Origin: Owenia fusiformis
Lineage: Eukaryota > Annelida > Polychaeta > Sabellida > Oweniidae
DNA: 64,000 nt
Assembly: GCA_903813345.2 (NCBI GenBank)
Contig: CAIIXF020000007.1
Location: 17,096,714 to 17,160,713 of the forward strand
Reading direction: 5' to 3'
The notes below the pieces were generated by a model. That model searched no databases, was not told the origin of the DNA, and saw only the letters and a program-made list of their open reading frames with translations. How positions within the stretch are numbered: the first letter of the stretch is position 1; each line of letters starts with the position of its first letter. Below, one piece after another: positions 13,501-59,057 of this stretch. The position numbers and the translations under genes were made by a program.

Positions 13501-16500
13501 TTTGCAAGTAACAAATATACAGGTAAAGTTAATGAGGCTTTTCAAATAAGAATATCAAAGTGTCAATTTTAATCTAAATTTTTAAAATATTCTTAGATAG
13601 AAATCATGATCGATATTAGAGACTAGATATACATGTAGTACTTTGGGAGTTCAAGGTCAGACCATTTTTAATAAGTTTGATTTATTCTGGAGTAAAATAA
13701 ACAAATGCAAAATTACAATATATCTATATTTTATACATAGTTCATGATTTGAGAAAAAAAAACTTAAAATTTTTATTTCAAATGGTTATAGGTTAAAAGG
13801 AGGTTCTTTACTACAAAATAAAATATTTTAGAGGATAATGTCTTTATATTCCAGAAGTGATCATGGCTTCAGTACATGTGGTAGAAGAGAACTACAGGGA
13901 GGTCCTGACTTGTCCTATATGTATGTGCCTCCTCACCAATCCAAAAGTGACACCCTGCATGCATACAGTATGTTGTGGGTGCCTCGACAAATTGATCAAA
14001 GAAAAAGACGATACAGTATGTCCGTGTCCTGTGTGTAAAGTCGACTTTGAGGTACCAGATGGTGGAGCTGAGGGTCTCAAGGGCAATTATGTACTGAATG
14101 ACATGTTAGATGCACTGAGGAAGAAACTGGAAAAAACAGCTGACAACATTGAGCAACACTGTGACATTTGCGCGTCACATGATGAAAAAGTTAAAGCAAC
14201 ATCTAAGTGTATCGAATGTGACCAGTTCATATGTAACCCTTGCATGCGTACTCATCAAAGCATTAGGGTCACTAAAGACCACAAGGTCATTCCAATCACA
14301 GGTGATAACAAAACAGACATACAAAGTACTTTAGAAGTGATTCCAAAACGTATAAAGTTCTGTAAGTCCCACCCCAATGAGCCTTTGAAGTTCTACTGTA
14401 CAAGTTGCCATGAGGTCTTGTGTAGGGACTGTTGTATCACCACACATAATGGGCACAAGTGCGAGGATCTAATAGACAATGTGAAAGGTGACGTGAAAAA
14501 TATTGGATCTCTCATCGAAATGGCTGTACAAAGAGAGGCAAATGTCCACACTAGTATCAAAGAGATGAATGAATACAAAGAAATCATAGAAAACAATGCT
14601 GCAGCAGTCAAAGCAGCTATTGACGCAACAAGAAAAGTTCAGCATGATTTAATTGACAAGCACTATAACAGCCAAGTCACTGAAGTTGAAAAACTAAAAC
14701 ATGATACCATGAAGAAAGTGGATGAACATATTAACAATCTTGAACTACAAAATGGTATCACATTGAGCACCAAGCACCTTCTTGAGACGCAGCAGCAGTT
14801 TGGCCACCCTGCTCATATTATCAGCATGAGGCAGGAACTAACCAATAAAACACAGGAGTGGTCCAAGCCCCAGAAACTAAAGTTTGAACCAAAGATTCAG
14901 ATTATGTTCAATGATGGGAAAACAACAGAGACAGGACTGGACTTTGGTAGTGTTACTTCACCGAACAGTACCTTAAAAGAACAGGTAGAGATTGAGACAG
15001 CTATTAATACATTGCCAGGAACTTTATGGAATCTCCAATTTCTTGAGAACGGTGATATAGTATCAGCTCACGATGAAGGTGGAATAAATATCACTGATCC
15101 TATAACACTTAAACAGAAACATCATGTTCAGATGAAATGTGTACGCCTCACAACACAGGGCAATCATATCATAGCAGTGGATGAGGATACAGCCACAATA
15201 AAGCAGTTGGATGGAAAGGGCAACATTGAGAGAAATGTTGATTGTATTAAGTCACCAGTATATAATATAGCAGCTGCTCCTGATGGTAAACTAATAGCAT
15301 ACCACGAGGAAGATCAACTATCACACATTGATATTGATACTAACACCTTGATCTCAACACATAACATTAAAGGTGATGGCTATGTCCCTTACATATCTGT
15401 GACCTCCAAGTCTGAGACTATTATATCATACACAGATTTGAACATTGTAGAAAAATACAGCAAAAATGGTGAACTGCTCTTTACATATAATGGACAGAAG
15501 GATAAAGTGAATGAACTTGAAGGATCTCAGGATGTGTGTGTAGATCCATTTGATAGAGTTATAGTAGCGAGTCAAGGAAATAATACAGTTCATCTGTTGA
15601 GCCCTGGAGGAAAGTTCATTAAGCTTCTTGTCACCCCTGAAGACAATATCATAAGTCCTCGAGTAGTGGTTATGGACAAACATAATCATCTGATTGTAAG
15701 CACATACGAAGGCAAGGTACATTATATCAACTACCTAAGCCATTAGCTGAGAAAACAAGCAAGTACTGAGTTCAGGACACACCCAAAGTGTAGCTTGTAA
15801 CAAACAAGCTTGACAGTGGTAACATTCTTTCACAGAATGGCTGACTTATGCCCCTACTGGACATGACGACATGTAAGGAATGATGTGAACCATAATTATC
15901 GACTCAATTTTTTAAAAAATTAACCATGTATCTTTGATTCTACACTATTCTTGTAAAATCACGAGCAAAACAAATATATCTTTATGTGTTGATGTGATTT
16001 TCTGCGAGATGCAATTAAAGTTGGTATAAATCAAGCGAGTTAAACAGGCAATGCGCCTATTTTTGAAGGAAAAAGGACAAAATATTATTTGAGACATGTC
16101 ACTCACACAGTCAATCAAATATGATAATAACTTTAATTTGGGATAATACTGAAGTGAAAAAAAAATTATTCGCATAGAAAACGGCATTTGAAGTTCAGAG
16201 ATTGAAAAAAGTGAATTACCACTTTTCACAAAATGTATGTTTTAAATAACTCTTGGATTAAAAGATGGCGTATGCTTAAAAATCCTATCAAAAATGAATG
16301 GATAATCAATGCAAACAACAGTGCCATCTTTCTATGGCATTGCTAAAAACTTGACACATATAAATTGATAGATCAAAAATATTTTTTCATGATCTAGTGT
16401 CAAGTCTGATGTGGTCTGTTTGAGCTATTTTTGGTGTCAAATGAAAGATCAGGTACTTATTTATCCATTGGAAATACTATGAAGATCAAAAATGAGACTT

Positions 16501-22500: not shown

Positions 22501-25500
22501 ACCATTTTTGTGGTGATATTGAATCAGAAGGATTCTTGCCTCCTAGGAGACCTATTTATGATTATCAGAGTAAAAGCTAACTAAGTAAAGTCAACAATGA
22601 CTGTCAAGTCCATTTTTCTTCCAATGAAATATTGATTCCAAATAAGGAAGGGCGCATAAGAGCAGAACGCTGCCCATGAGACTGTTTAATAATTGCGATA
22701 TTATTCAAGATATCCTTCGGATAGTTCCAAATTACAATAAATTTCTGGAAATAATCATTAACAATGGCAGATGGCTTGAACTGATATGAGGCATTATTAT
22801 ATCACTATCTAGCTAGCGACATTATGATTGGTCAAAACCGGGTCACATGTCATGGGATATCTGGCGATATTCAATGGCAATGCTAATCAGATAAGACAAC
22901 CGTGAGATATCTAGCGATATCCCACGCTCCCGGGAATTTTCAAAGAATTTGTTTTCGTTCAGTGTAAATAATTTAGTTCAGTGTAAGTCAAAATGGCAGA
23001 CGAACCGAGTAGATTCAATGTATTTCAATGTTAACCTATGACTTAATAATATTAGGGATGTTTAGCTAGACAGTGATATAATAAAACAAATATTTCACTC
23101 TATTTTCGGTGAATACCTGTAGCACTTTCACAAGGTGATATTCCACTTGCCCTTCGGGCTTCGTGGAATATCACTTGTGAAAGATGTACAGGTATTCACC
23201 TCAATAGAGTGAAATATTTGTTCATTATCTTCTATCAATGTTAACTGACTGTGGAAAGAATGTAATCTATATTAAAGAATTTAACCCCAAGACTCAATGC
23301 ATTGTTTGCTGAATCATACCATGAAGGTGTTGTTTCCAAACCTTTGCATGACCACACAGCAGGAATGCAAAGTTTAGGAAACAACGCCTGAGTGGAATGA
23401 AGCAGCTAAAATGCATTGAGTCGCGGGCTTAAATTCTTTTCACACATTGCAATTTTTTTCTATAAAATCATTTAAAAGGAACAAAATCACTAAAAGAGCA
23501 CATTTTTAATGAATTTTTTTGCATGGGTCAAGTTGGCAAGTCATCATATCCAATGTGAAAAATCCATTCATCGCCATGACAACTGTTTAACTAGTGCCCT
23601 TGCACGTGTTATTGATATTTCACACACTGTTCATTATGTGAATACTCTGTTTGGATTGGCTGGAATCGGACACACCTTGCCTAGCTATGTGTGAATTGAA
23701 AAATCAAACATTGTGTCAAGGAATCTCACTATTTCCATTGTATACTTTTAAAATATGATATAGATCATTGTCTGGATTTAATTTTTTAATTGTAAAAGAA
23801 AATCGAGATATATTTGTCTTTCAATTTAATGTCACAAATAATTCTACTATCAAGGTTTATTAACACTGTTTTTACCAATTTACACACATTTTATCAAGTA
23901 TGACGCAGGACTGACAGTTTATTGCATTTCATTGACGCACTGATATGTATGGAATTCAATTATATTTGTATTATATGTGATGAGCGAGTGTTTCAATTTA
24001 TACCTCTTTAATTGATTTAAAGTAGTTGGGACTCCTTATAAGGAATATTGGACTTTAATTGTATGTTATTCTCTCTAATAAATGCACAATGTATCTCCAA
24101 AATTCTCCTGAAAGAGATATTCTCCTGAATGAGTCTCAAATAACAAAACATTTAAAGACTTGTTCATGTTGGCAATTTCCAGCAAAACCTGTCTACATAT
24201 CTAATTGCTTATTGTTATTAACAACTGATAGGTAGTAAGCTAGCACCCAAAAATGTATTAGTTCGTCAACAAATTGAAATTACTTGTTTCTTATGTATTT
24301 TTATGTGATACTTCAGAAAATGTTTGTCTGACGCGCCGTATCCGGGGCGAAAGTTGTCAAATTGGCGTTTTGGACCCTAAAATGGAAAATTACAGGGGGT
24401 ACTTTATGATCATTGAATAAATCCTTTAGTTGGTCTTCAATCATCATAATAATTTTATGGGGAGTTGATTGGATCATGCTGAGGTAGTATGTTAAGGTTC
24501 AATCACCTGTCACTCATGGTTGCCATGGAAACCACAATTTTCATTGAAAAATCCTTAATTTTGGCCAAACCTGTACAGGTACATAATATAGAATGAGGAT
24601 TATTTTTCAAATCAACAGATATAAGAATATTTTAGCACACCCAAAATGGCCAGGGAAGTTCAAGCATTTGTTTAAGCATAAAGGATATTGCAATTTATAT
24701 AATTGGTAAGTGTCAAAGACCATACTACTACATAAGTGATCAAAAGTGGGCGTCGCCCCCATAATAGTAAATGATTACCATTCTCTGAAAAGACAGAGTT
24801 TAACTTGACTTTTGAGATACATTTATATTGAAGTTCTTTGAATATACTTAATATCATGCATTCCTGGTAAATAATGTACATATAAGTGTAAAAGTTGTTA
24901 CATGGGGAGCGGAGGGGGGGGGTGGTAGTAACAGAATTTGGAGGGGGCAGAGCTAATCAGCCTTAGTATAATTCTCATTTATATAGTTCTGGATATTCAA
25001 AGGTTACATCTTCTGGGTCTTCTTCATTTTCATAACAATAGGTACTACATTTTACATGATTGGTGTCAAAGACCATACCATTACATAAGTGATCAAAAGT
25101 AGGCATCACCTTCATAGTAGTAGATGATTTCCATTCTCTATAAATACAGGGTTTAAGTAGAATTTTCAAGATATATATATATATATATTTATCATTTATA
25201 CTTCTTTGATTATACTTAATATCAACCATTTCAGGTGAATAATGTACATCTCACTGGTGTCAGTTGAGAAGATATTTATAGTTTTCATTGACTTAAACTA
25301 CTTTATAGTTGATGTAACGCTTTGATATTTGAACTAAACCAGGCTTATATGGCATATACCATCACTCGATACTGACCAGTGACATCTGAGTTTTATAGTT
25401 ATTGCATGAGATGCAGGTTGAGAGGGGGGGGGGGGGGCTAGTAATAGAAACTGGAAGGGGGTTCATATGGTTCATTCTCTACAAACAGAGGTCAACTTGA

Positions 25501-28500
25501 GTTTTAAGATCATCCAGTGATCTCCCTAGGATTTCTTCTTAGGTGGGTACAAAATTTTCATTTCCTCAATTTAGACCACAATTGGTCAAAATATGCTGAT
25601 TTTTCTAACTTTCAAGTGGGTGCATATGGATTTTCAGATGGGTGCAAACCTATTTTCAAAATCTCAGGTGGGTACTGCGCCCACTTGCTTTAATGCTTAG
25701 AAGATCACTGTCATCTATACGTCATCTATACTTCTATTATTTAAGAAATATAGACTGAAGAGCAGGTGTTATATTGACAAATACACTCCACATGGCTATG
25801 CAAGAGAGTGAGGGGTTCGAAAGCTTTTGTACCTAGCCCTAAGGGGTCATTGTCAATATCACACCTGCTCTGAGGTATATATTACAATTCAAACATGAAA
25901 ACTCCCCAAAATTTTTCGAATATTCAACTTATGGTCTGCCATTACTACAGCCCTCTTGAAATTACTTGTATTACCAAGGGTAGTGTTGACATATACATGT
26001 ATATACCCCGGGTAAAATGTTGACTTTGTTCACAGTTTATAGAAGGCGTGAATACAGTCATGTTCAAATATAATTTATATAAACCATTTCTCATAAATAT
26101 GTTTAGTAGTATAGTTTTTACATGAGGTGAGGGTGGGGAAGTGGTTTCAGACCTAGGAGGGAGCTCTACTCCCTCCCAATTATTCTGTTACTACTCCCAT
26201 CTAGGGCCTGGCATAATATATGCAGCCTTCATACCTTCATGCGATAAATCACAAGAATGAAAATGATCAGACTATGAGAAGGCTCATTTATAGTTGTTGT
26301 TGTATTGCCATGACTAGACATTCTGATACTCATAGCATCTTTCTGTCTCACCTGAAGGGCTGGGAAGAAATAAAATTTCATGGTTTATCATGATGATCAC
26401 TAGAAAGGATATGGCATTTCCCACCTGCTACACAGTAGATTTTTTCTTGGCATATTCTGGTCTTATTCAATTAAGTGTAACTGGTATAGTTGCTTCTTGT
26501 TTGCATCCTTATTCATGAACTCATTCCAATCTTAAGGGACTCATGTATTTCTACATTTGATAAGGTGATGTGCCACCACCCACTTCTCCTATCAGGTTCG
26601 TTTATAGAATTTTGGATTTAATTATCACATAATCACTCTGCTGTAAGAAGTATCTTGAAAAACATGTATTTTCTGCCAGCTCCAGAAACAAAACAACCCA
26701 TCAGAGAATCCATGAAATTTAGTGTGATATTTCCTTAGGGCCGATATGGGCCCAGAGAGTAATATTGTCACAAGGAATAAACACATATTCAATCCATCTC
26801 TCATATGCATTTTAAAGACTACATATCTTTCATTTATAAGTCCTTCAATCAATGTGTTAGGATAAGCGCAGAATACAGCAAAGTGTAGTGCTGGACACAC
26901 AAAAGAAGACTGATTAATATGATAAAAAAAACACATTTATGTTAAGCCACAATGTCTTACACCAGCAAAACCACATAAACCAATTGAAATAGAAGTTTAG
27001 ACCCCATAAAACAATCAAAGACTATGAAGGAACCGACATCAGTCTTCTTCCACCTTGTCAAGAGCTTACTACAAAGCACTTATCATGCATATGGCCCATA
27101 TTGTAAACCCTGACATTCCAGCAGAAGATGGACATGGATGGAAACTGAATAACTCCACCATTGCATTGGGTATTGACTGGTATTCTCAGACAAATGATTG
27201 TTGATATAGCACCAGGAGATGAATCAGAAAGACTCCAGAAGATGTATCTTATGAAATCCAGAACTCTGAAGATGAAATTGATACTTAATGCTGACTTGTT
27301 CCCCCCACACCTCCAAATTCTGTTACTACCCCCCTCCCATACAATAACTATATACAGTATATTGAGATACATGTAACTAAGAAGACCCAGAAAATACTCT
27401 ATGAAGAAGTCCAAAAGAAAGAATTTATTAGTATTCCTAAGGCTGATTAACTCTGCCCCCTCCCAATTCTGTTACTAACCTCACCCCTCCTCATGCAATA
27501 ACCAGTCCAATGTAAATGTATCTCAAGTCAAGTTTAACTCTGTTTTTATAGAGAATAGCAATCATCTACTCTAGTATGGGGGCGACGCCCACTTTTGATT
27601 ACTTGTGTAATTGTATGTTCTTTGACACTGACCAATCATGTAAGTTGTAATATCCCATAAACTGAGATGAATATGAAGAAGACCCATGCAGAAGATGTAC
27701 CCCATGAAATCCAGATATATGTAGATAAAATTTATACTTAAGGCTGATTAGCTCTGCCTCCTCCCAATTCTTTTACTAGCCCCCCCCCCTCCAACCCCCC
27801 CCCCCCCAATGCAATAACTATAACACTTAGATGTACATTATTTACCAGAAATGCTTGATATAAAATATAATCAAATAAGTCTAGTGTAAATGTATCTCAA
27901 AAGTCAAGTTGAACTCTGTTTTTATAGAGTATAGCAATCATCTACTATTATGGGGGCGACGCCCACTTTTGATCACTCATGTAATTGTATGTTCTTTGAC
28001 ACTGACCAATCATGTAAATTGCAATATCTTTTATATTTAAACAAATGTTTGAACTGTACTGGTTATTTTGAGTGTGCTAAAATGTGCTGATATGTATTGA
28101 TTCGAAAAATAATCTATATTCTACATGATGTACATGTTCAGGTTTTGCAAAATTAAGGATATTTTGAACGAAAATTGTGGTTTCCATGACAACCATGAGT
28201 GACAGAGCATTGGAATTTTACATACTACCTCAGCATGATCCAATCAACTCCCCATAAAATTATTATGATGATTGAAGACTAACAGAATGATTTATCGAGC
28301 GATGATAAAGTACCCCCAGTAATTTTCCATTTTAGGGTCGAAAACCCCATTTTGACAATTTTCGCCCCTGATATGGCGCGTCAGACAAAAAAATTCTGAA
28401 GCATCACATAAAAATACATAAGAAACAAGTAATTTCAATTTGTTCACGAACTAATACATTTTTGGGTGCTAGCTTACTACCTATGAACTGGTCTGTACCA

Positions 28501-31077
28501 TAATGTGCACTGACACTGATCAATTCATGAGGGTAAGGGAATTAAACCAATTATCACCCACATAATTTTCATAGATTTTTTATTCTTGATTTTTGACAAT
28601 CAATATCGCTAAGGTTCTTCATGAAATATTGAGTAGGGTGTGTATTTATTGAAGTACATGTATGTATGTGTCTATAAGAGAGAATACGGTATGATATAGC
28701 ATTAAAAGCAGCCTCAGCTAATGAATCTTTGAATTCCTTAGACGCAGAATGACCTTTTCACCATCAGAAGATTGAAGCTATGATAGGCATTGTAGACAAT
28801 TCCATCAATGCTGCTATAAGCTGAAACAGCCCAATTTATTTAATTAGCCAATTACTTCCATACTGGAGCCAAACAGAACCATCAAAAGAAATCTCTATAT
28901 TCAATTTCTTCTTCCTTATTCAGCTGCCCTGTATAAGCACCATAGGTCCAGCTTCAAAGTGAATCTGACTTAATCTTAATAAAACATTAAGATATTACAC
29001 AAAGTGCAATGTCTTTATAATAAATCAAGGGGTTTCTATCAAAAATATTGACTGGGTCTCCAGAGAATATAATTTGAGATTTCAGGTGTATGTATACGGT
29101 TTTGAAAATCAAGAGTATGGTACTCGTATGTTGTATATGGATGGCTTTTTGTTGGACTGCCAATGTGGATAAAATAAAAAAACTAAACTGTCATTTAAAA
29201 TAATAAAGAAAAAACACATAGTGATTAAATGAATATGAAGATTATTTACTCAAAGGGATTGGATAATTATCCCAAAGGATATAATATACTATGGCTATTT
29301 ACTTACTATTAGTGAGATTGAATAATCACCCCAAAGGATATAATACAGAGTGCCCGAATTAAAATAAATTGTACCAAGACTATAGAATTACTCTGTGGGT
29401 TTTGAAGGAATATTCTTGAAAAGACTAGTCTCAGTTTGGAGAACAAAGTTCATCAGTCTACTGCACGTTACACCTGCTTTGGACAATTTTGATATTTTTA
29501 CAAATTGTAGATTTAAATGTCCTCTTTTGAATATCCATAATTTAATTTGGGTGATATTTCTATATTTTCATAAAAAATTATTAGCGCAGTACACTGATGA
29601 ACTTCTTTCTCCAAATCGAGACTGGTCATTTATAAAATCGGTCTACTGCATGATGTCATGCCTGCTCCAGACAATTTTGATATTTTTATATCTTGTAGAT
29701 TTAAATGTCCGCTTTAGAATATTTATAATTTAATTTGGGTGATATTTTGATAATTTTCATCAAATAAATATTAGCCCAAACCGAGACTTGTCCTTTAGTC
29801 ATCTGAAAACAATTTAATCATCATAAACATGGAGGTTATTAGGAGCACAGCATGTAAAATGTAAAATTTCTCAGTAACTACAGGGTGTCAAATAAATATG
29901 TTCTCCCCTGTAACTTTAACATCCAAAAAATGTTGCTTAACCTTTTGTCTGAAAGTTATCTGAATTGTTCTTAAGCACATTAAAACTAGGCTTCATGGAG
30001 CAACTCTACAAGAAGTTTCAGATGACTAGTTTAAGTAGATGCGCTTTCATGCATAAAAGTTCATACTCTTGAAATTAAGAGGGAGAACATATTTATATGA
30101 CACCCTGTACTTTACAAATTTTTATGAACTTTTTTAACTGCTAATTGGAAAATTAATTTTCTTTATCACGCGCAAAGTTCAGCTTTTTTAGTGAAGGAAA
30201 AAGAGTAATTCCCCTTAAATTTGGATCTATTTTTTGGGACACTCGCTATATTACTATATCACTGTCAAACTTGTAAATGAATAATTGGTCAACATTGGGT
30301 TACATGTCACGAAAGATCAGGCAATATTCCCGGACCACGCTTATCAAATTTGACAACTGGGGAAAGACTTCCAACTTTTTCATCGCTCCCAGATATTTTC
30401 AACATACACATATTTCGTTTAGTGTCGATGAACATTATAATGATGACATGTAAACAGATGTTTTAACCTGTACGTACAACTTCATTTATTATCAGTTTTA
30501 CATATGAATAAATCATAATGAGGGTCATGAGCTTGACAGTAATATAACAAAACAAATATTTAATTCTAATATTGTGTACTATTTCATGAGTAGTAAATGT
30601 CATACAGACCAAACAGGGGATATATCCACATTTAATCCCTGACCAAAAATCAGATTTACACATTCTGGTTCTGAATTGGTTCCCTTCTACACTTAGATTG
30701 AACTATCATACATATACAGTAGATCTTGGCTAAAGAAATATCATTTTTATTCAATATACAATAAACAAGACTTGAAAATACATGTATACACTGTACTATG
30801 CTTGGGTAAAGTTAATAAGTTGAGAAACTGAATAAGAATTATCCTAATTGCTTCTTGTTAATGATTACCAAAGTTGAGAAGAGAATTTTGATTTGCATTA
30901 TTTTGATAGAAATTTCTCTCCTCAAGTTACCCCCTCTATTGGCTGAACCCTTAAAACATGCTGTATAATAGATTAACCTACCCGTCCCTGAGGTTTATTC
31001 ACTAAGAAGTAATAGGTCACACAGTTCCACATTAGGAATGTTGCCACGACAACGATGATGACGGTACGTCGCTTCAT
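4423..31077 (-). CDS. MGAT1: MGAT1 (GnT-I) gene, coding span, 12 recognised exons
   Basis: Alpha-1,3-mannosyl-glycoprotein 2-beta-N-acetylglucosaminyltransferase, a Golgi type II membrane enzyme (family GT13). It transfers GlcNAc from UDP-GlcNAc to the alpha-1,3 arm of Man5GlcNAc2 and so opens hybrid and complex N-glycan synthesis. Twelve exons were read on the minus strand with GT-AG borders and matching phases from exon 3 to the stop. The product has about 506 residues; the human enzyme has about 445, and the excess is in the stem. In order: a membrane anchor near residues 5-26, a coiled-coil-like stem, the start of the catalytic domain at [15 protein letters not shown], the metal-binding EDD motif, [23 protein letters not shown] with the catalytic Asp of the family, and a C-terminus ending in TWN. 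Vertebrate MGAT1 has its coding region in a single exon, unlike here. The one unresolved point is a phase mismatch between exons 2 and 3. Identity is very secure from motif order; it is not inferred from a search. Confidence 0.96.
4782..4952 (-). CDS. MGAT1: MGAT1 exon 11
   Basis: Fifty-seven codons encode the C-terminal part of the fold: [34 protein letters not shown]. They align without gaps to the human segment ending LGVMDDLK. The acceptor is TTTGCAG and the donor AAG|GTAAGG, phase 0. Confidence 0.95.
5123..5320. repeat. 46-bp tandem repeat in an MGAT1 intron
   Basis: Four full copies and one partial copy of a 46-bp unit containing CTTACTGGTACTTTTTGAAT, nearly identical, in the intron between exons 10 and 11. 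On the MGAT1 strand most units contain a donor-like CCA|GTAAGG or a close variant. Confidence 0.9.
5390..5480 (-). CDS. MGAT1: MGAT1 exon 10
   Basis: Encodes [19 protein letters not shown] and DISYLLK. The human counterpart begins HGQFF, so His is replaced by Lys at the junction residue. The acceptor is CTTTTTTCAG and the donor AAA|GTAAGT, phase 0. Confidence 0.94.
5898..6090. mobile_element. CAGGGTGTCC MITE, 193 bp
   Basis: Ends CAGGGTGTCCA and TGGACACCCTG. TA stands on the left and a degraded CA on the right. Same terminal type as the copies near 2.0 and 29.9 kb, but the interior differs. Inside an MGAT1 intron, 43 bases from exon 9. Confidence 0.7.
6133..6237 (-). CDS. MGAT1: MGAT1 exon 9 (FWDDWMR motif)
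   Basis: Encodes [13 protein letters not shown], then CIRPEISRT and TFGKIGVS. In the rabbit GnT-I structure the Asp of this WDDW segment is the proposed catalytic base. The acceptor is TTTTTGTAG and the donor AGCAA|GTAAGT. Confidence 0.95.
6440..6530 (-). CDS. MGAT1: MGAT1 exon 8
   Basis: Encodes [16 protein letters not shown] and LELEPKWPK, conserved in GnT-I around the acceptor-binding loop. The acceptor is TTTTTTCAG and the donor AAAAC|GTAAGT; phases 1 and 2 match the neighbours. Confidence 0.95.
7205..8602 (+). repeat. Minisatellite-bearing repeat family, copy 1
   Basis: Begins with CAACGCCAAAGCGTAGC and AATCCCATCGA, continues with about six copies of a 135-140-bp unit (AATGGCCGCCATTTTTC, GTGCCATGCTTATAG, TTTTCGAGTTATAG), and ends in GGAC tetranucleotide repeats and GCGTTCCCTATA. 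Copies of the same layout lie at 42.9, 17.5 and 44.0 kb. No transposase. It fills the MGAT1 intron up to 48 bases from exon 7. Confidence 0.85.
8650..8784 (-). CDS. MGAT1: MGAT1 exon 7 (EDD motif)
   Basis: Starts after ATATTTCAG and completes the EDD motif ([14 protein letters not shown]), then continues [14 protein letters not shown], which is almost invariant in GnT-I. The donor is CCAG|GTATTG. A TCCACAG inside the exon could be mistaken for an acceptor, but the upstream codons belong to the conserved fold. A repeat array begins about 48 bases past the donor. Confidence 0.95.
9229..9367 (-). CDS. MGAT1: MGAT1 exon 6 (catalytic domain)
   Basis: Encodes HPDLSDIPL, then [14 protein letters not shown] and VIIVE, the last being the strand that carries the first acidic residue of the EDD metal-binding motif. 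The acceptor is ACTTGCAG and the donor GAAG|GTAGGT (phase 1), so the motif is split across the next junction. Confidence 0.95.
9509..9960. mobile_element. 452-bp TTAA-flanked MITE, copy A
   Basis: Terminal inverted repeats start GGATGCAGTACC and are flanked by TTAA on both sides, the target duplication of piggyBac-type elements. The interior has no long ORF. A near-identical copy of exactly the same length lies inverted at 12.7 kb. Confidence 0.88.
9965..10890. other. MGAT1 intron, nothing recognised
   Basis: Sequence between the first MITE copy and the 24-bp minisatellite. No exon or element ends were seen. Confidence 0.4.
10891..11386. repeat. 24-bp minisatellite
   Basis: About twenty imperfect units of 24 bp with core TATGGGACATCAAGTGATCA. 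Because 24 is divisible by three, reading frames stay open by chance and would encode MGHQVINS-like octapeptides on the plus strand. There is no sign of a real gene. Confidence 0.88.
11930..12502. mobile_element. CAGTGGGG mariner-like MITE, 573 bp
   Basis: Ends CAGTGGGGGACAAA and the inverted CAGTGGGGATCAT, with TA on both sides. Contains the inverted pair CTCCCAGAATGCAACAT / ATGTTGCATTCTGGGAG. A related element lies at 56.7 kb. Confidence 0.8.
12747..13198. mobile_element. 452-bp TTAA-flanked MITE, copy B (inverted)
   Basis: Reverse complement of the 9.5-kb copy with only a few base differences and the same TTAA flanks. The two copies form a long inverted repeat around 2.8 kb of intron. Confidence 0.88.
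13203..13854 (+). other. TRIM upstream region
   Basis: AT-rich. Should contain the TRIM promoter or its first intron. The only supported signal is the acceptor at 13852-13854. No TATA box could be chosen. Confidence 0.4.
13863..15746 (+). CDS. TRIM-family RING E3 ubiquitin ligase, intronless ORF
   Basis: Probable E3 ubiquitin ligase of 627 residues. The RING is C3HC4: C17, C20, C32, H34, C37, C40, C55, C58. Two B-boxes follow, about residues 99-146 (HCDIC, CIEC, CNPC) and 166-205 (FCKSH, CTSC, CRDC, H195/H198). A helical, Lys/Glu-rich coiled coil spans about 205-325. The last 230 residues contain repeated short strands such as [16 protein letters not shown] and [13 protein letters not shown], typical of NHL-like or six-bladed propellers in TRIM2/3/56/71-like proteins. 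The start is the ATG in ATCATGG. A splice acceptor (TATATTCCAG) ends nine bases before it, so a 5' UTR intron is likely. The gene lies inside an MGAT1 intron on the opposite strand. Which TRIM subfamily, and which substrates, cannot be told. Confidence 0.93.
   Translation: MASVHVVEENYREVLTCPICMCLLTNPKVTPCMHTVCCGCLDKLIKEKDDTVCPCPVCKVDFEVPDGGAEGLKGNYVLNDMLDALRKKLEKTADNIEQHCDICASHDEKVKATSKCIECDQFICNPCMRTHQSIRVTKDHKVIPITGDNKTDIQSTLEVIPKRIKFCKSHPNEPLKFYCTSCHEVLCRDCCITTHNGHKCEDLIDNVKGDVKNIGSLIEMAVQREANVHTSIKEMNEYKEIIENNAAAVKAAIDATRKVQHDLIDKHYNSQVTEVEKLKHDTMKKVDEHINNLELQNGITLSTKHLLETQQQFGHPAHIISMRQELTNKTQEWSKPQKLKFEPKIQIMFNDGKTTETGLDFGSVTSPNSTLKEQVEIETAINTLPGTLWNLQFLENGDIVSAHDEGGINITDPITLKQKHHVQMKCVRLTTQGNHIIAVDEDTATIKQLDGKGNIERNVDCIKSPVYNIAAAPDGKLIAYHEEDQLSHIDIDTNTLISTHNIKGDGYVPYISVTSKSETIISYTDLNIVEKYSKNGELLFTYNGQKDKVNELEGSQDVCVDPFDRVIVASQGNNTVHLLSPGGKFIKLLVTPEDNIISPRVVVMDKHNHLIVSTYEGKVHYINYLSH
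15747..16536 (+). other. TRIM 3' UTR, then MGAT1 intron
   Basis: No ORF of note. ATTAAA at 16014-16019 is a possible TRIM poly(A) signal. The rest is intronic to MGAT1 up to exon 5. Confidence 0.4.
16537..16645 (-). CDS. MGAT1: MGAT1 exon 5 (catalytic domain)
   Basis: Thirty-six codons after TATTTCAG encode [18 protein letters not shown] and following residues, a family hallmark close to the human segment with QDCGH. The donor is AAG|GTAAGA, phase 0. The large upstream-to-downstream intron that follows (7.2 kb) hosts the TRIM gene. Confidence 0.95.
17006..17195 (-). CDS. MGAT1: MGAT1 exon 4 (start of catalytic domain)
   Basis: The first half is a low-complexity Gly, Asn and Pro linker. The second half opens the catalytic fold with [20 protein letters not shown], which matches the family's first strand and helix (human IPILVIACDR...). 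The acceptor is TTTGCAG and the donor AA|GTAAGT. Only one frame is open, and it matches both neighbouring phases. Confidence 0.93.
17537..17820 (+). repeat. Degraded copy of the minisatellite-bearing family
   Basis: Carries GGCAATGCCAAGGCATCACA and CCCATTGGATATCC, matching the head of the family, then a shortened AATGGCTAACATTTTACCGC segment. The GGAC tail is missing. Confidence 0.55.
18032..18161 (-). CDS. MGAT1: MGAT1 exon 3 (stem region)
   Basis: Open in one frame that joins exon 4 correctly. It encodes a polar, probably helical stretch ([12 protein letters not shown]), continuing the stem. The donor is TCTC|GTAAGT (phase 1). The acceptor is TTGTAG at 18162-18164; a second possible acceptor, CACAG, 24 bases further in, keeps the same frame. 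Confidence 0.72.
19306..19500. repeat. Dispersed repeat of about 195 bp, copy 1
   Basis: Shares blocks with 25.5 kb in the same orientation: GGTCAAAATATG, TATTTTCAAAATCTCA and GCTTTAATGCT, and an end like AGATCACTG. A fragment may also start at 46.48 kb. Class unknown. Confidence 0.65.
19576..19726 (-). CDS. MGAT1: MGAT1 exon 2 (stem region)
   Basis: About fifty codons between TTTTTTATAG| and |GTAAGC. The peptide is rich in Glu, Lys, Leu and Gln with heptad-like spacing, so it is probably a coiled-coil stem. It joins the anchor exon in phase 0. With the GTAAGC donor it ends in phase 1, which does not fit exon 3. An internal ATG|GTAGTC donor (phase 0) would fit, or one short exon was missed in the 1.4 kb between them. 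Confidence 0.75.
19727..22794. other. MGAT1 intron, nothing recognised
   Basis: First 3 kb of the 11-kb intron between exon 2 and the start-codon exon, read from the exon 2 side. No exon or well-bounded element was found. Confidence 0.4.
22795..23224. mobile_element. TATTATATCACT element plus 134-bp hairpin
   Basis: Inverted ends TATTATATCACTATCTAGCT and AGCTAGACAGTGATATAATA frame about 290 bp. A long hairpin follows at once (23087-23220), whose arms pair almost fully around CCCTTCGGGC. A weaker relative lies at 30.25-30.58 kb. Looks like a composite MITE. Confidence 0.7.
25511..25713. repeat. Dispersed repeat of about 195 bp, copy 2
   Basis: Same family as the copy at 19.3 kb, same orientation, sitting inside the 4.3-kb foldback between its arms. 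Confidence 0.65.
25769..25871. repeat. Short hairpin element, about 103 bp
   Basis: The 21-bp ends GAGCAGGTGTTATATTGACA and the inverted GAGCAGGTGTGATATTGACA differ by one base, around a loop of about 60 bases. Confidence 0.6.
29346..30246. mobile_element. TA-flanked element with an internal duplication, 901 bp
   Basis: Ends like CAGAGTGCCCGAATTAAAA and the inverted GCGAGTGTCCCAAAAAATAG, with TA on each side. Inside is a direct duplication of about 200 bp (ACAATTTTGATATTTTTA, GTAGATTTAAATGTCC) and an intact smaller MITE inserted later. Confidence 0.6.
29881..30107. mobile_element. CAGGGTGTCA MITE, 227 bp, nested
   Basis: Long, near-perfect ends (CAGGGTGTCAAATAAATATG and the inverted CAGGGTGTCATATAAATATG) with TA on both sides. 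Inserted inside the 901-bp element. Confidence 0.8.
30247..30580. mobile_element. Degraded TATTATATCACT element
   Basis: Matches the 22.8-kb element at TATATCACTGTC, AATTGGTCAACATTGGGTTA, ACATGTCACG and the AAACAAATATTT block, but has lost the clean hairpin. Confidence 0.5.
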
Positions 31078-31117: not shown

Positions 31118-32330
31118 CTGGAAATAGAAAAATATGATGCAAAGTAAAGAAAATGATTATCGACCTAGATTTAACTTCATCAATACTGATTATAAAGACA
31201 CTGATTTTTTTCCTGAGAATGTGTCAAAACAATATAATGTCAGAGGTTATTTGGTCCCTGGGGCATGATCTCTACATGAATTGCTATTAACTGGTAGTAT
31301 CTGTTTTATGGGTAAGCTGACTTTGTAATTACTGTAATACAATTTCTCTGCCCATATGGTTACAATAGATAACCTAAATAAAGGCAGAATACTCAAAATA
31401 AGAAATCTCAAAGGGGAAGAAGCATCAGAGCAATTCATAACAGCAAAATTGAGACTATGTATAATGTAAATCAAGTTATTAGGGCTCGGGATCATCAATG
31501 TTTTGTAAAATTGCAAAACCATATGTGAATGCCAAAAACAAATTAAACACTGATCCAGTCTACAGAGTTGTTCCATATTTCCTGTTTGACTGACATATAC
31601 TATGTTCTTTGCTCAAGACATGAAAGGGTCAATCAAGGTCATCAAGGTCAATATAATATCAAGGTTATATATACAGGGCAAGGTCACGTTTATTGATCAA
31701 ACGTCAATATCTCAAGTTTTTTAAATTACAAAGCTCTCTGATGTAATTCTCATTCTGCACTTTGCTACTCAGTAATGGTCATTGTTTGTGATTGGTCAAT
31801 TCTGGTCACGTAACAGTAACTAGTCAACATGAATTAGCAACCGCAAAGCTAAAGTTAATTTGATAATTCTGAAATTATGAAGATTTACAGACTATACAAT
31901 ATTAAATTATGATGTCAAAGTCAAGAAGAGAGCCACTTGCTAACTATTTCCAAGGAGGTGAAGATCTATACAGATGTATACACCTTTGTTAAGTATAACC
32001 CAAATCATCAGTTTCAATTCGTATCTTTAAGAGAACTTCACCAATGAAGACTGTAATTAAGTAGGATCTGACACTCAGGGTATACACAGGACTAACCTAC
32101 ATTGCAAAAGTAATTATTTGCTATCAGCCTTCAAAGAACAATCACCTGTTATCACCAGTAGTGATTTGTGCTCCCTGTCTTGGAATAGGCTTAGGACTTC
32201 AGAAAACCCTACTTAATTCTACAATAATTTTTTCTTATATTCACCTCCAAAAATCTATGAAATTTTGAAGTGTTTCACCAAGATTCTAGGTAATAGCATC
32301 TTGCTTAATCAAGCTTCGGACCTATAGAAC
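31118..32330. other. MGAT1 first intron, nothing recognised
   Basis: AT-rich. Short repeats of the type AAGGTCA near 31.63-31.69 kb. No exon was seen. Confidence 0.4.
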
Positions 32331-33040
32331 GTAGTCACTGGGTGGTATCGTGATGCAACAACACCGTGTTGTTGCATCAAGATGGCAAGACTTCCGGTGT
32401 TAGATTTTCGTACGATATTTTGTTTCCCAATTTAAACCCATTTCTAGGACGAGTTTCTCAATCAACCATACACGTGCAGTTAGCGCACGATCTATATTTA
32501 AAGAAATTGTCATTAGTATACATGTAGCATCATCAAGAAGCAATAAGTTCACGGTTTTAGTTCCTCACTATTGATGCAACAACACCAAACCGAAGATGCA
32601 ACAACACTCCTCTAGATTTGAGCAATGATGCAGCAACACCAATTAATAGTATAATTTCAGAAGACCATAAATCTCGAGAGGAACAGATTTTTAAATGCTA
32701 CGATTGCGACACCGTTACCCATTACCCATTTGCGTTCTTCTCAAGGCATTCAAAATACACGTCCTGCGGGCGAAGATTCTTTACATATATTTTCAAAATT
32801 TATACTTTTAAATATCATAATGTAATGGACGTTGTTCTATAACATAGTTCAATCGCCTTTAACATGGCAAGCTACAGTAACCCAATCTATTTTCATAAAC
32901 CACTGTTCCATAGCTTGATGACCCTGACTCCATTTAGTATCATTCAAAATGGTGGACAAACATCTTTCGTTCTCGGTAAACATGACGAGCTATTGGAAAT
33001 TATCTGTCATCCATCTGTAGAACAGTGATAAACTAGATAT

Positions 33041-34304
33041 CACGGTGCCCATGTCAAGCTGCGCGCCTAAGTAGGCGCGCAGTTTGTTTTGATCACAAAC
33101 TGCGTGCCTAACAACATTGCATCATTTAAGTCGGAGTCTGTATTTTGAAACGTAATTTAAGGACATTTATCCTGCATTGTTTTCTTGTTCAATGCGTTCA
33201 TTCTGTGGCGAATGTACAAATCTTGCAAATACTAGCAAAAACTACATGTATGTGCAAATGAATCTAAGTTTTAAAACATAAGCAGATTAATGGCATTTTC
33301 GTCACTGATTTAACGGGAATTTATACGTAAATCGATCTAGCACTTTAAACATAAATGACAAATACTTTAGACACGTTTTATATTTAATTCCTTACGCATT
33401 TATCATGTATAATTCAAAATATTTCGAGATAAAACAGATAATCAGGAGATTAAAAAGAAATGAACCACAAACTGCGCGCCTATTTTAACCAGAAATTATA
33501 AACTGTGCGCATACACTATTAAAACTACATATTATCATTGAAATTTTTACAGAGGCACGTAAAGGTGTTTTTCATATAGCTTTGGAAATTTTGCTTTCTC
33601 GTCAGATTTTATGAGATTTTCATATTGAAAGTCAAAATGTATAATAGAAGTGACAATTAAGTTGGGAACGAAAGAAAGTATTTTATTTTCAGATCACCAT
33701 TTGGTGGATGGACTCTCATAGTGTTTCAATTATAGGGTTCTACTATTAGACACATATGTGCCTTACATATGGCGCCTACGTTTTCTAATAATACAAAACA
33801 AGCTTGGATAGGCAAGTTTGGAAATATTAGGCACGCAGTTTGGGAAATACATGTGAATATAGGCGCGCAGTTTGACAAGAAAAATGTTTAAATCACGTTT
33901 ATGGCGTATTATCGTTTTGAACACAAACTATGCTGCTTTAATCAGATGGAGTGATCCTATATATTCTAGCATACACAGACACAATGGCTGAATAAACGGC
34001 ATATGACGATAAAAATACAAAGATATAACTTTACACTGTAAATTTTGAGCACAGAAGTTACTTAAGACCCTTATATTGAGATAACTAGGTTAACATCAGG
34101 AAAAACATTGAGTACTAAGAGTAAATTAAGTTCATCTTCACAGAATGGTACTATCTATAGAACGAGACTAACCTTGTATTTTTCGTATTTTGTCTCTTTT
34201 TGGGAGTCGTGTCCTCCCCGTCTTCAATTTTGAAATATGCGCGCAGTTTGTCAGAGTTTCAAACTGCGTGCCAAGTAGGCACGCTGCTTGACATGGGCAT
34301 CGTG
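33041..34304. mobile_element. 1.26-kb nested element, CACGGTG ends, 5-bp duplication
   Basis: Inverted ends CACGGTGCCCATGTCAAGC and CACGATGCCCATGTCAAGC, flanked by GATAT on both sides (33036-33040, 34305-34309). Subterminal and internal copies of CAAACTGCGCGCC occur at least seven times in both orientations. No ORF longer than background. The 5-bp duplication and CAC-start ends resemble Transib-type elements. Confidence 0.8.
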
Positions 34305-34436
34305 GATATAGTAGATGTACGTTACCACTGTTTATCAAAATATAGCTAAAACAGTTTCACTGTAACATTCGTGAGCTTATCGGAGAACATTTCAAAAAGC
34401 ATGTTAATGAGATGATTGCTTCATCTATGATATGAT

Positions 34437-34565
34437 ATGATTCTTTATTTCCTCCAATTTGGAGAGCCAACGAGTAAAAACGTACCCTGCGCGCAGAGTC
34501 TAGTTAAACTACGAAGCTCTCTTTTAAGAAGTGAAGTCAAACGAATGCAAAGGGTAGTAAAAACG
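34437..34565. repeat. Repeat fragment shared with 38.9-39.3 kb (inverted)
   Basis: Contains AGTCTAGTTAAACTACGAAG and GAAGTGAAGTCAAACGAATG, found inverted in two blocks at 38.90-38.95 and 39.25-39.29 kb, which are separated by about 300 bases absent here. Confidence 0.65.
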
Positions 34566-35999
34566 TCTAATTGACTTTATTAGGGAGGTTTAGTTACACG
34601 TTTAATGAAAATCTTGCACGGTGCACATGTAGAAGTATTGCTCTCTGTGGATTCGTTCTCTCCGACTAAGTAAAAAGGTAAACAAAAGTGATAGGATTTA
34701 GGGCCCAAAAAGGTAAACTGATAGGGGTACAGTAATCCCAGATTCCCCCCGGGCCCTCGGGACATATCATATTGTCTCTCGGAATAAAATCAATATTGAA
34801 TCCCTCTTAGTAAATAACCTCTATATAATAGCATTGTATAACTGCAATATCATTAAACCAACACTCATCCTATACAACTCTTGAGAACGATGTACAACTC
34901 CTGGATAGCGTACACGACTCCTGAGCAGCGTATACAACTCTTCAACTTGATAAATGACGTCATACTTTGGGTGGGATAACAAAGGATATACAATATACAA
35001 TTGTAGACCTCTCTTGAGGTCAACTGTCAAAATTGTATACCGATACTGTAAACCTTGAAAGTTCTGTTGACCGAGACCGGAGATCTAGGTCAACAGTACT
35101 CTCAGTGTTTACTGTTAAGGTATACACTTTGGTCAGTTGACCGAATAGAGAGGTGAACAATTGTTTGTTAGTCCGAAGAATATAATAATTGGACGAATAT
35201 ATAATCGAATATCAAGTGAACATATTTGATAAGTAAAGGTATCATATTTTAGCAAAAAATCTCAAAACCGTCGAATACTTGTAATTTTTTACACAACTTA
35301 TTTTTTCAAAATTAAAAAAAAATCAACATTCAAAAAACATTTTTTCAAAAGTAGCGGTCAACAGTACATATTGTTGTCCGCTCATCAACCAATCAGAAAT
35401 GAGTATTTCAATTGAGGTACAAACAACACAAAATGACTGATATCTATTGTCTTTCCATGATTATATTCTTAGTTATTTGTATACAATGTCCATACGGTAA
35501 ATCAAGGGCATTTAATTTAGAAAATGTTCGTATAATAATCTTTATTTTTCAGATACAAATACATTAAGAAACCAAACAAAATACGTTTCATTCATGGACC
35601 ACGGACTCACGCGTTTTATTCATGTCCCGACCAACACCTGTAAACAGGACATAAACAGTTTCTCTTGTTGTTCAATGATACATTATATTGGCGTTTTTGC
35701 ATCAGCACATTGGTGTTGTTGTATCATCGATAATAAACAGAGTGGTGTTGTTGCATCAATAGTGAGGAATTAAAACCGCGAAATTATAGCTTCTTGATGA
35801 TGCTACATGTATACTAACGACAGTTTTTCAAAATATAGATCATGCGCTAGCTGCATGTGTATGTTTATTGAGCAACTCGTCCTAGAAATGGGTTTAAATT
35901 GGGAAAACAAATATCGTTCGAAAATCGATCACCGGAAGTCTGGCCATCTTGATGCAACAACACGGTGTTGTTGCATCACGATACCCCCCAGTGGTAGTG

Positions 36000-38898
36000 A
36001 TTGAGCGTGGGAACCGACGATGAGGTAATAGAGCTTGTTATACATGCACAAGTCTGTGGGTTCACCTGATGAAGTCAATAACTACCTGAAAAGTAGCCAA
36101 GTAGCTATTTTGGCACAGAACAAAAATGTCCAATCTCAGATCTATTATTACAATATTCTTAGTCGAAGCCAAATCATACAATTGATAGATCTGAGCATGT
36201 GTGTTTGTCATGGATCTCAATGGTTTTCAATATATCAAAGGCGTGAAGAAAATGAATACACAGAATCTTCATGGGAATGTCTGTTATGTCATGAAGTTAG
36301 ACATATCCAGCAGGTAGCAGGCCACAGTGACTTTAAACACAAATCTAATCTATGGTGTTCAACATACATAACCTTAATACCAGTACAAAGTTTATGCTGC
36401 ATCTGGACCCCAAAATGTAGACCAACATCAATGCTGAAGCGGGATCAGGGTAAAAATAACTAATCCTAACTAACTAATAACTAACTTTTATGTTATAGAT
36501 TCTATTTTGATCGATTTTAGCTTTTGACTAGAACATGGAAACTGACCTAATAATGATGATAAAACACTAAAGCCATTCAACTTGGATTGAGTAGTACCAA
36601 GATCATCATAAACAATGAATATTATGTTATATCAAAACACATGCTAAATGTCTGGGGCACTTTGATCTTGTTTAGACTAGCAGTCCATAAACGTTTACTG
36701 TTTAAGTCATAATCTCATGTCAAGACACCAAAAAAAAATAAATGTGTCATGAACTCTCCTGGCTCCGAAATTGAAAAAATGACATTTCCCAGTATATGTG
36801 CCATATATCATATGTCAAATAGTCTTATAACCCCCTCCCCCCAACAACCTGTACATATCATCTCCACGTTGTGAGAAGAAAAGGGGGCGTGCTGCAGAGA
36901 TGTGATGAGGTCTACATACCTACTAGTAGATTCACATTTAATATAAATAATATATTGTACTGCATGGCTCACCAGGATCAAATGATTTTTTATTCTTATA
37001 ATGCACTGTGACACTATTTACACAAAATGAAGTGAAATCTGATTTTTCATATATTTCCTGTTGAGTATAAGAGGTAGAAATGAGATGTAGCTTATCAGAG
37101 TGTAAATATTGTAAGACATGCTACTATCAAGTTTATATATTATATATAAACGCATTCTATGGTAGGATATTTTAGTATAAAGTATCTTATCCAGGCTAAT
37201 CCTCATGTAAGAGGTTGCTAACTTTAAAAGTGAGGTTCATCTACATGTACATTGTAAATGTATATATACACAGCTTGTTTACTGGGCTCTGTGGTTACAA
37301 AGCAATAAAATAACACAGTCAATGGAGCAAGCTATTTTTCCAAGTGTGACTACTTTCAAGTCACGCTTGACCATTCATAAGCGATAAGCGATAAGGCCTC
37401 GATAAAATAATGTGTGTCATCGGTTAAACATATTTAATTGTCTAGTTTCTTATATATCCCAGTAACAAGGTCTTCATTAATAATACATGTATTACGAGTA
37501 AATGTCAATTGTAAAGCTGTATAGTACATAGCTGCAAATGAACATTATATGATAAATTATTCATGAAAACCATTGTTTAACATGATAGTTAACATCACAC
37601 AACTGTAACATCTAAGTGAAAGTAAAGATTGTTTATAAATAAAAACATTACTGCCGATTTCTTTGAAATGACAATGATTGCATTATCAGTGTACGTACTA
37701 TAGCATTTCCTGCTATATAAGATATATAAGTTACAGCGAGTCTTGCTACATAACCCCTTCTCCCACTCTCAATAATTTCATAACCCGAAGCTGTCTGTGA
37801 CAACCATCATGTTATATTTCCCAGTATTGTCTGAGGATAGATATTTCAATTGATCCCAGCAGGTTGATATCTGATATTACTCTGCAATACAAACAATAAC
37901 AACTGTCCAAGTGATTCATCTCTCACATTTACCATTTTTTTCCTTGTACAAACTGAACACAATCGTGTGAAATAAATCTTACTTACCAAGTGCAACTGGC
38001 TGATGTTCTAAAAAACGAAGGCCGCATTAAATCATGACATATATTTAGCCTCCTTTCCTACTTTACGATCCACTAGAAGTGGATGCAATCTAAGAGGAAA
38101 TTAACTTTCCAATAGTCTGTCTTGTCTCTAATATCATACAAAGTCTCCAAAATTAAGTTTGTCAGATAGGGAGCTTGATTTTATGCTTCATTGAGCCACG
38201 TTGCCAACTCTGCTCCTCCAAGTCAATTGGGAGATGCATCTATGTGAATACAATTCTTACAAAATATTACATCTCTATATCAGATCAGAGGTGAATTTTC
38301 AAGCAATTTTGATTGCATGTTAGATAAATTACAGCGCCATAGTAACTTTTAAAATGGAGAAAAACTTATTGCACTTTTGCAAGAAAAAATGGAGATTTAG
38401 TGATAAGAAGTTCTACTTGGGAACTTCAATATGTTTATATTGGACATTGAGACACTGCAAGCAATATACATAAATATAACTTCCAATTATGATCCAATCA
38501 ATGTAAGGCTATAAGTCTTCCTCATACTTAGCTAGAATCCCCCGAGACACCATCTACCCAATTTTTAGCATGATCATATCGCCATTTTTGCATATTAGAT
38601 AAATGAAATATGTCATAATTCCTTAGCCCTATGGAAATATAAGTTTTATTCATGAGCCCTAAATCCAAAGATCTGATTTAGATCATTTGTATCCATCATG
38701 CTAAAACTAGACATTCAATCCATCTTCAGAATCCAACACACAAATATGAGATAACTACAACAAATACTGAAGCATCTGGTTTTCTCAAATATACTTCTCA
38801 GATATATCTCGTATCCCAAGATTTTGATTTAATTTAATGTTCATTTGCATGCCAATGTCTATGTTGACCCTACCTCAGAATTTTGAAAACTATTTCAT
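36000..38898. other. MGAT1 first intron, nothing recognised
   Basis: AT-rich, with TA dinucleotide tracts (about 37130-37150). A 142-codon open frame at 36035-36463 has no recognisable domain and no splice context. Confidence 0.4.
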
Positions 38899-39290
38899 TG
38901 GTACCCTTTGCATTCGTTTGACTTCACTTCTTAAAAGAAAGCTTCGTCTTCACTCTTTCAAACTAAAATAAACCTGTGAACTCACCGCGCCAATCAGTGT
39001 TCGTCGGCCAAATTTGACCGACGTTCTATATATGGGCATTCCTTCTGACGTCATCGTTGAGCCCGGGATTGACCAATGACATACGCATATTTAATTAGAA
39101 CGCATTTGGCGTATGTTTCTTCAAGCTCGCTGATTGGTGGAAGAAAGGTCAGCACGTAGGTCAGAAGTGATTTACTACCCAAACTGTCACCGGTACCCGT
39201 CCTGGGGGCGGGGCTACTTAACTGTAATATGGTCTCTACTAGGCAGAGTGTAGTTTAACTAGACTCTGCACGCAGGGTATTTCATTGGTA
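38899..39290. repeat. Split copy of the 34.5-kb repeat
   Basis: Two blocks match 34.44-34.56 kb inverted. The interval between them begins CACTCTTTC and ends GGCAGAGTG, a possible 6-bp inverted end, and contains the promoter-like sequence. Confidence 0.55.
38986..39140 (-). promoter_or_regulatory. Candidate MGAT1 promoter and first-exon donor
   Basis: Read on the minus strand, two CCAAT boxes (39133-39137 and ATTGG at 39073-39077) are followed by a full CRE (TGACGTCA, 39046-39053), a TATATA box (39027-39033), and a splice donor GCGCG|GTGAGT at 38986/38985. Local C+G is higher than in the surroundings. The order suits a minus-strand promoter feeding the MGAT1 acceptor at 31117. The segment is also bounded by pieces of a repeat found at 34.5 kb, which lowers confidence. 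Confidence 0.35.
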
Positions 39291-54568: not shown

Positions 54569-55117
54569 GGGCGAAGGGGTGTATCGTCGACACCATTTTG
54601 GGGTAACTTCGACATGTGGGGTAACTTTGACACCTTGTTGTTTATTTGCTCTAATTTCTGATCTCGGGACAAGCCATTTTTTTCTCACATGGATAGAGAT
54701 ATCGCGAGATTTTTCCAGAAATCAAACATGGCGGAAAACTGAAATTCTACTTCTCATATGGAAGTCTCGAAGTTACCCCGACTCTTATGTCAACATTACC
54801 CCACATGTAGTTCAACAAGTTAAACCTAGTCTGGGCCTTATTTCTTTTCTGACATATCTTGTGGCCAGCCCTAGGTTTAACGTCCCTGCCTATTCGGCCC
54901 TTGATGCAAAAAATTTAATGGTGGCCTATGGTAGCGCATTGAATTCCATGCGCGTTTAATTAATAACTGATAGTGAGAATTTGCAACAAATGAAAGCATA
55001 GCACGGAAGTTAAACACAACCACGGCAACAAGAACATTCAGATTAATAAATGAAAGCCGTGGTATTGGGTTTAACTTGTTGAACTACCCCACATGTCGAT
55101 GTTACACCCCTTTGCCC
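54569..55117. mobile_element. TA-flanked MITE, GGGCGAAGGGG ends, 549 bp
   Basis: Ends GGGCGAAGGGGTGTA and the inverted GGGCAAAGGGGTGTA, with TA on both sides. ACATGTGGGGTA is repeated near both ends. The TTCAACAAGTTAAACCTAG segment inside is also seen at about 58.28 kb. Confidence 0.75.
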
Positions 55118-59040: not shown

Positions 59041-59057
59041 GTTAGAAATTAAGAATA

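Follow-up and report, generated by a model that had tools for sequence, protein, structure and literature searches.

Probable insertion of one non-autonomous transposon into another with unrelated ends and a common end layout

Results

The stretch of DNA analysed here (the window) comprises 64,000 nucleotides. A Pfam scan was performed on 10 of its 11 open reading frames of at least 110 amino acids. An open reading frame at 13839-15743 is TRIM-like, as it encodes B-box zinc fingers with a Pfam match that exceeds the cut-off, and a RING match that falls just short of it; a second one at 59046-60092 contains a chondroitin N-acetylgalactosaminyltransferase domain. By these two domains the DNA looks animal, in agreement with the setting assumed in a preliminary description of the locus. 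The central part of the window is occupied by two nested elements, the features of which are compiled in Table 1.

Table 1. Positions of the outer and inner elements and of their parts, in window numbering
Feature	Position	Strand	Description and basis
Outer element (probable non-autonomous transposon), host of the nest	32336-35993	.	3,658 bp including the inner element; inverted 252-bp ends, 91% identity; CAC..GTG; 5-bp duplication
GTAGT, left copy of the outer 5-bp duplication	32331-32335	+	sequence, exact
GTAGT, right copy of the outer 5-bp duplication	35994-35998	+	sequence, exact
Left terminal inverted repeat (TIR), outer element	32336-32587	+	first bases CACTGGGTGGTATCGTG; dyad 32351-32379
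Right TIR, outer element	35743-35993	-	first bases CACTGGGGGGTATCGTG; dyad 35950-35978
Inner element (probable non-autonomous transposon)	33041-34304	.	1,264 bp; TIRs and flanking GATAT
GATAT, left copy of the inner 5-bp target duplication	33036-33040	+	sequence
GATAT, right copy of the inner 5-bp target duplication	34305-34309	+	sequence
Left TIR, inner element	33041-33069	+	29 bp, 90% complementary to right TIR; weaker similarity to 33110
Right TIR, inner element	34276-34304	-	weaker similarity to 34236
Left dyad, inner element	33055-33086	.	two inverted TAGGCRCGCAGTTTG copies, centre 30.5 bp from tip; palindrome scan, 13/14 arms
Right dyad, inner element	34260-34290	.	two inverted motif copies, centre 30.0 bp from tip; palindrome scan, 12/14 arms
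Further TAGGCRCGCAGTTTG copy	33096-33110	-	motif search
Internal TAGGCRCGCAGTTTG copy	33468-33482	-	motif search; 3-mismatch copy next to it, 33499-33513
Internal TAGGCRCGCAGTTTG copy	33828-33842	+	motif search
Internal TAGGCRCGCAGTTTG copy	33860-33874	+	motif search
Further TAGGCRCGCAGTTTG copy near right end	34236-34250	+	motif search

The boundaries of the inner element agree with those given in the preliminary description, both by sequence and by a search for its terminus. Its left tip (33041-33059) is CACGGTGCCCATGTCAAGC, starting CACGGTG, and its right tip (34286-34304, minus strand) is CACGATGCCCATGTCAAGC, starting CACGATG. At up to 3 mismatches, these tips were the sole two matches in the whole window, with 0.01 expected and two matches reached in 0 of 100 shuffles, indicating that the inverted ends described earlier are real. 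The TIR is longer than was originally given, extending over 29 bp at 90% with weaker similarity out to about 70 bp at 77%. The GATAT previously noted on both flanks is exact, and with the boundaries fixed, 5 bp is the only direct-repeat length between 2 and 9 that fits. From base 15 inward, the TIR is made up of copies of a 15-bp motif, TAGGCRCGCAGTTTG, which occurs ten times in the inner element in both orientations, with copies at either end and two clusters of them in the interior. Ten of the 11 window matches to this motif (up to 3 mismatches; 1.04 expected) fall within the inner element. At the left end, a second palindrome has its centre at 51 bp.

The inner element had been called nested, and this fits the outer element as its host, with TIRs and a 5-bp duplication of its own. 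The CAC..GTG ends and duplication of the outer element, as well as the 15-bp motif of the inner one, had been absent from the preliminary description. Both ends of the outer element begin CACTGGG(T/G)GGTATCGTG. The element has its own repeated 15-bp motif, TGATGCAACAACACC, for which 10 of 11 window matches lie inside the outer element (2.39 expected), and two inverted copies of it form a dyad at either end (14/14, centred 30.0 bp from each tip). Duplication lengths of 3 and 4 do not fit the outer element; a 2-bp reading (GT) fits, as part of GTAGT.

The outer element also contains smaller units. A 127-bp unit at 32901-33027 is flanked on either side by the 6-bp sequence ATAAAC and has imperfect CACTGTTC..GAACAGTG ends (16/20); the GATAT of the inner element starts 2 bp past the right ATAAAC. 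When units 60-400 bp long with ends of at least 16/20 and a flanking repeat of 5-9 bp were searched for, the window yielded five rows, this unit included, and 100 random sequences yielded none. At 34484-34555 lies a 72-bp ACCC..GGGT unit with an 11-bp flanking repeat, AGTAAAAACGT, of which a longer relative occurs on the other strand at 38903-39278, with about 302 bp extra in mid-unit and the 11-bp flanking repeat ACCAATGAAAT. Because of these long duplications, the two units suggest a Mutator-like non-autonomous pair. A self-inverted stretch of about 168 bp (77%) is located at 34997-35164.

Pairs of CAC..GTG ends bordered by an exact 5-bp duplication were searched for at two stringencies. With at least 16 of 20 end bases paired and a distance below 6 kb, the window yielded two pairs, the inner (18/20) and the outer element (19/20), compared to a single one of 300 Markov-1 random sequences that had any pair, at 16/20 and none higher. 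With at least 14 of 20 end bases and up to 12 kb between ends, three pairs were obtained in the window, as opposed to 100 random sequences with a mean of 0.23 and never more than 2. In view of this random mean, the third pair, at 23621-28642 (14/20), was taken as chance. Such looser pairs lend some colour to the notion that the inner element is a chance inverted repeat and no transposon, but the stricter scan, the terminus matches seen in none of the shuffles, and a 15-bp motif array that lies inside the element except for one 3-mismatch match leave this notion next to no credibility.

All four ends display the same layout, in which CAC is followed by a core of approximately 14 bp and then by a palindrome whose centre lies 30.0-30.5 bp from the tip (30.5, 30.0, 30.0, and 30.0 bp at the four tips). 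In their first 100 bp, the inner and outer ends have nothing in common beyond 8-bp matches (E 0.31). A palindrome of the dyad type lies 29-31.5 bp downstream of 72 out of 63,940 window positions. Since left and right ends within an element cannot count as independent, the coincidence of the dyads rests on two elements or families, not on four ends. Scanning the window for CAC plus dyad yielded seven matches, four of which are the known ends, and 60 random sequences averaged 1.7 with a maximum of 6; given these values, we regarded the three extra matches as noise. The match at 38983, one of the three, is situated in another repeat, and no partner end in the window matched it at more than 13/20. 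In folding of the four ends as single-stranded DNA, each one did better than all 200 of its own shuffles. In the minimum-energy folds, the 30-bp dyad forms the main hairpin at the outer ends only, and at the inner ends the main hairpin involves the motif copies that come next, further in (approximately bases 32-70). The 30-bp dyads of the two elements do not have hairpin formation in common, and they are for this reason read as protein-binding sites rather than as hairpins. In the parts of the literature covered by our search, transposon consensus libraries aside, no description of either element or of the 30-bp dyad layout was found.

A Pfam scan of all 31 stop-to-stop open reading frames of at least 45 amino acids in 32300-36030 gave no match above the cut-off. 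Three sub-threshold matches (E 0.069, 0.027, and 0.093; 13-14 bits compared to cut-offs of 24.5-28) were ignored. With no recognisable coding sequence, the enzyme would thus come from elsewhere. The window holds one copy of each element, and we infer their mobility from anatomy. When the flanks of both elements were joined in silico, no match across the junction was obtained; the matches that did occur were short and chance-like (the best one 31 bp at 84%, E 0.003). Scans of viral contigs gave 0 matches for the inner terminus, 0 for the outer dyad, and 0 for the paired inner motif. The outer terminus had three viral matches (L022-L024), in which, by eye, similarity ends right after the 17-bp pattern. 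The inner terminus was found in 21 stretches of the genome contigs, all in bacterial records, with about 15 expected by chance for two pattern variants on both strands of 257 Gb. The G+C content at these bacterial loci is 0.42-0.69 versus about 0.34 in the window. A second site within 4 mismatches occurred at two of the 21, on the same strand at L002 and inverted about 2.4 kb off at L004, there with no matching duplication. All 21 stretches were treated as chance.

The ends were further compared to the signals of RAG-related elements. The heptamer pattern CAC(A/T/G)(A/G)TG, taken as the preliminary description gave it, is matched at 7/7 by both ends of the inner element and at 6/7 by both ends of the outer one (CACTGGG). 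Heptamer fit alone is weak evidence, as about one in 40 ends starting with CAC would fit by chance if equal base frequencies are assumed. According to the available part of the source, the TIR consensus of protostome RAG-like elements is CACTWMCAAACKTYKBB with a conserved AAA at positions 8-10 (PMC7204232). Agreement with this consensus amounted to 5/17 and 6/17 at the inner and 9/17 at each of the outer ends, and positions 8-10 are occupied by CCC, CCC, TGG, and GGG. The nonamer of the vertebrate-type recombination signal sequence (RSS), ACAAAAACC, placed at a spacer of 11-13 or 19-24, had a best score of 3/9 at each inner end and of 6/9 at each outer one; at least 6/9 was reached by 728 of 5,000 random window sites.

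Discussion

Cut-and-paste transposition is recognized by inverted ends that are flanked by a short, exact duplication. The inner element is very probably a non-autonomous DNA transposon of this cut-and-paste kind, and it would have inserted into a second one that is likewise non-autonomous, has unrelated end sequence, and belongs to the same mechanistic type. A nested insertion of two apparently non-autonomous transposons is ordinary in kind; it is the common end layout that is unusual. In the mechanism that we envisage, a DDE transposase supplied in trans would take the outermost 14 bp or so as its cleavage core, and a separate DNA-binding domain of the enzyme would bind the dyad, that is, two inverted motif copies, and might use the further and internal copies as extra sites. 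The transposase would then excise the transposon and join it to the target DNA with a 5-bp stagger, repair of which would produce the duplication. The motif differs between the two families, and each therefore probably has its own transposase, both enzymes being of one common type. For hAT transposases, subterminal repeats at several hAT ends have been described to modify transposase activity in the part of the report available (PMC4763223), which offers a parallel for the presumed role of dyads and motifs in binding, not a proof.

As to the superfamily, we tentatively consider a hAT transposase of the group with 5-bp duplications, hAT5, that would move both elements, the dyads and motif arrays being sites for its N-terminal zinc-finger domain. 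The canonical hAT duplication of 8 bp fits neither element. hAT elements usually start with CAG or TAG, so that C as the third base, as in the CAC found here, is unusual for them; this and the fact that no transposase was seen argue against hAT5, and the literature search gave no published hAT5 ends with which to compare. In its favour, hAT5 is the hAT group characterized by 5-bp duplications (PMC12730594, citing Kapitonov and Jurka 2007, in the section at hand), and the motif arrays at the ends of both elements resemble the subterminal repeats reported from several hAT elements, hAT5 itself aside (PMC4763223). A survey of molluscs, as far as available, ranks hAT second among the DDE superfamilies and lists a single Transib (PMC10294476), which counts only if the host is a mollusc. 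That it may be one is no more than a guess, made from the frequent TACATGTA sites of the window, which are associated with molluscs. In proposing a relative of RAG, the preliminary description had left out hAT5, which also makes 5-bp duplications (PMC12730594).

A non-autonomous element of Transib, as in that earlier proposal, or of another member of the CACTA/Mirage/Chapaev/Transib clade, is a possible reading about which we are doubtful. It is in line with CAC..GTG ends and exact 5-bp duplications (GATAT and GTAGT) in two elements and with the full heptamers of the inner one. In the literature available in part, most of this clade is described with CA..TG ends and duplications of 2-5 bp (PMC12730594), and duplications of 5 bp are reported for Transib and RAG-like elements (PMC7204232, PMC8289069, PMC1852546, PMC8355894), Hztransib being an example (PMC1852546). 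By the pattern of the preliminary description, Transib also has the CAC start in common with the present elements and heptamer-like ends in common with the inner one. On the other hand, the outer element lacks a full heptamer, and both duplications are AT-rich, whereas the targets of ProtoRAG, Transib, and RAG lean towards GC (PMC8289069), a comparison in which two sites prove little. Repeated subterminal arrays, 15-bp motifs, and 30-bp dyads are not mentioned for Transib in the portions of its literature examined. What stands of the proposal is a TIR transposon, apparently non-autonomous, that has CAC..GTG ends and makes a 5-bp duplication; the specific tie to RAG and ProtoRAG is not supported, given the low agreement of the inner ends with the TIR consensus, CCC in place of AAA, a nonamer match of 3/9 at most in the inner element, and the CACTGGG of the outer one. 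A RAG/Transib reading is possible and unproven.

Within the clade, CACTA elements also bear subterminal repeats, and the duplication of Chapaev is 4 bp. CACTA/EnSpm, Mirage, and Chapaev elements share the CAC..GTG ends (for EnSpm, PMC12730594), but CACTA duplications are 2-4 bp long in the part of the source at hand (PMC9033116), as opposed to the 5 bp observed here. Duplication lengths of 2-4, the range of CACTA, Mirage, and Chapaev, do not fit the inner element.

Only slightly less likely than the Transib clade, in our estimation, is a lineage outside the described superfamilies, or within a described one not considered above, such as Ginger, that makes 5-bp duplications and has a dyad as end module. 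In its favour, two families with unrelated ends have the layout in common, and neither element matches the published consensus sequences tested; yet this lack of a match reflects the small number of consensus sequences compared, and no new enzyme is required. Ginger is named in the literature in connection with 5-bp target duplications; its ends start with TGT.

A non-autonomous derivative of a RAG1L-RAG2L (ProtoRAG-like) transposon is very unlikely: such derivatives are known from Pinctada imbricata (PMC7204232), and the CAC start and 5-bp duplication are shared with protostome RAGL (PMC7204232) and amphioxus ProtoRAG (PMC8289069) as far as these sources were available, but none of the four ends follows the protostome consensus beyond CAC or has AAA at positions 8-10, and the element has no RAG1L or RAG2L match.

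Returning to two non-autonomous transposons of one mechanistic type, one could speculate, with little confidence, that the 5-bp-duplication transposons of animals include a lineage with a modular end. In such an end, CAC and a core of about 14 bp would be followed by a dyad with its centre fixed 30 bp from the tip and its sequence variable between families, so that the cleavage core would be separate from a swappable dimer-binding site. Should the transposase of this lineage be Transib-like, its two-part end would combine a heptamer with a second module other than a nonamer, which would bear on the origin of bipartite RSSs. More generally, if the partner is Transib- or RAG-like, the common end layout would give a fresh hint at the evolution of two-part recombination signals. 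If it belongs to hAT5 or to another group, the case would caution against identifying relatives of RAG by CAC-type heptamers and 5-bp duplications alone.

Additional repeats in the window

Several further repeats occur outside the nest. A TTAA-flanked element at 9509-13198, starting GGATGCAGTACC, has inverted ends of 460 bp (TTAA included) that are 99.6% identical, and it is therefore probably recent. A large inverted repeat at 24228-28484 spans about 4.3 kb overall, with arms of approximately 960 bp at 84% identity. An element of 279 bp at 54808-55086 is flanked by a 9-bp repeat, CCCCACATG, and has TAGTTCAACAAGTTAAACC ends. Two short units, at 29880-30108 and 1986-2181, have ACAGGGTG inverted ends and are each flanked by ACT. 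Sites of TACATGTA occur 26 times in the window, compared to a mean of 2.5 and a maximum of 7 in 60 random sequences.
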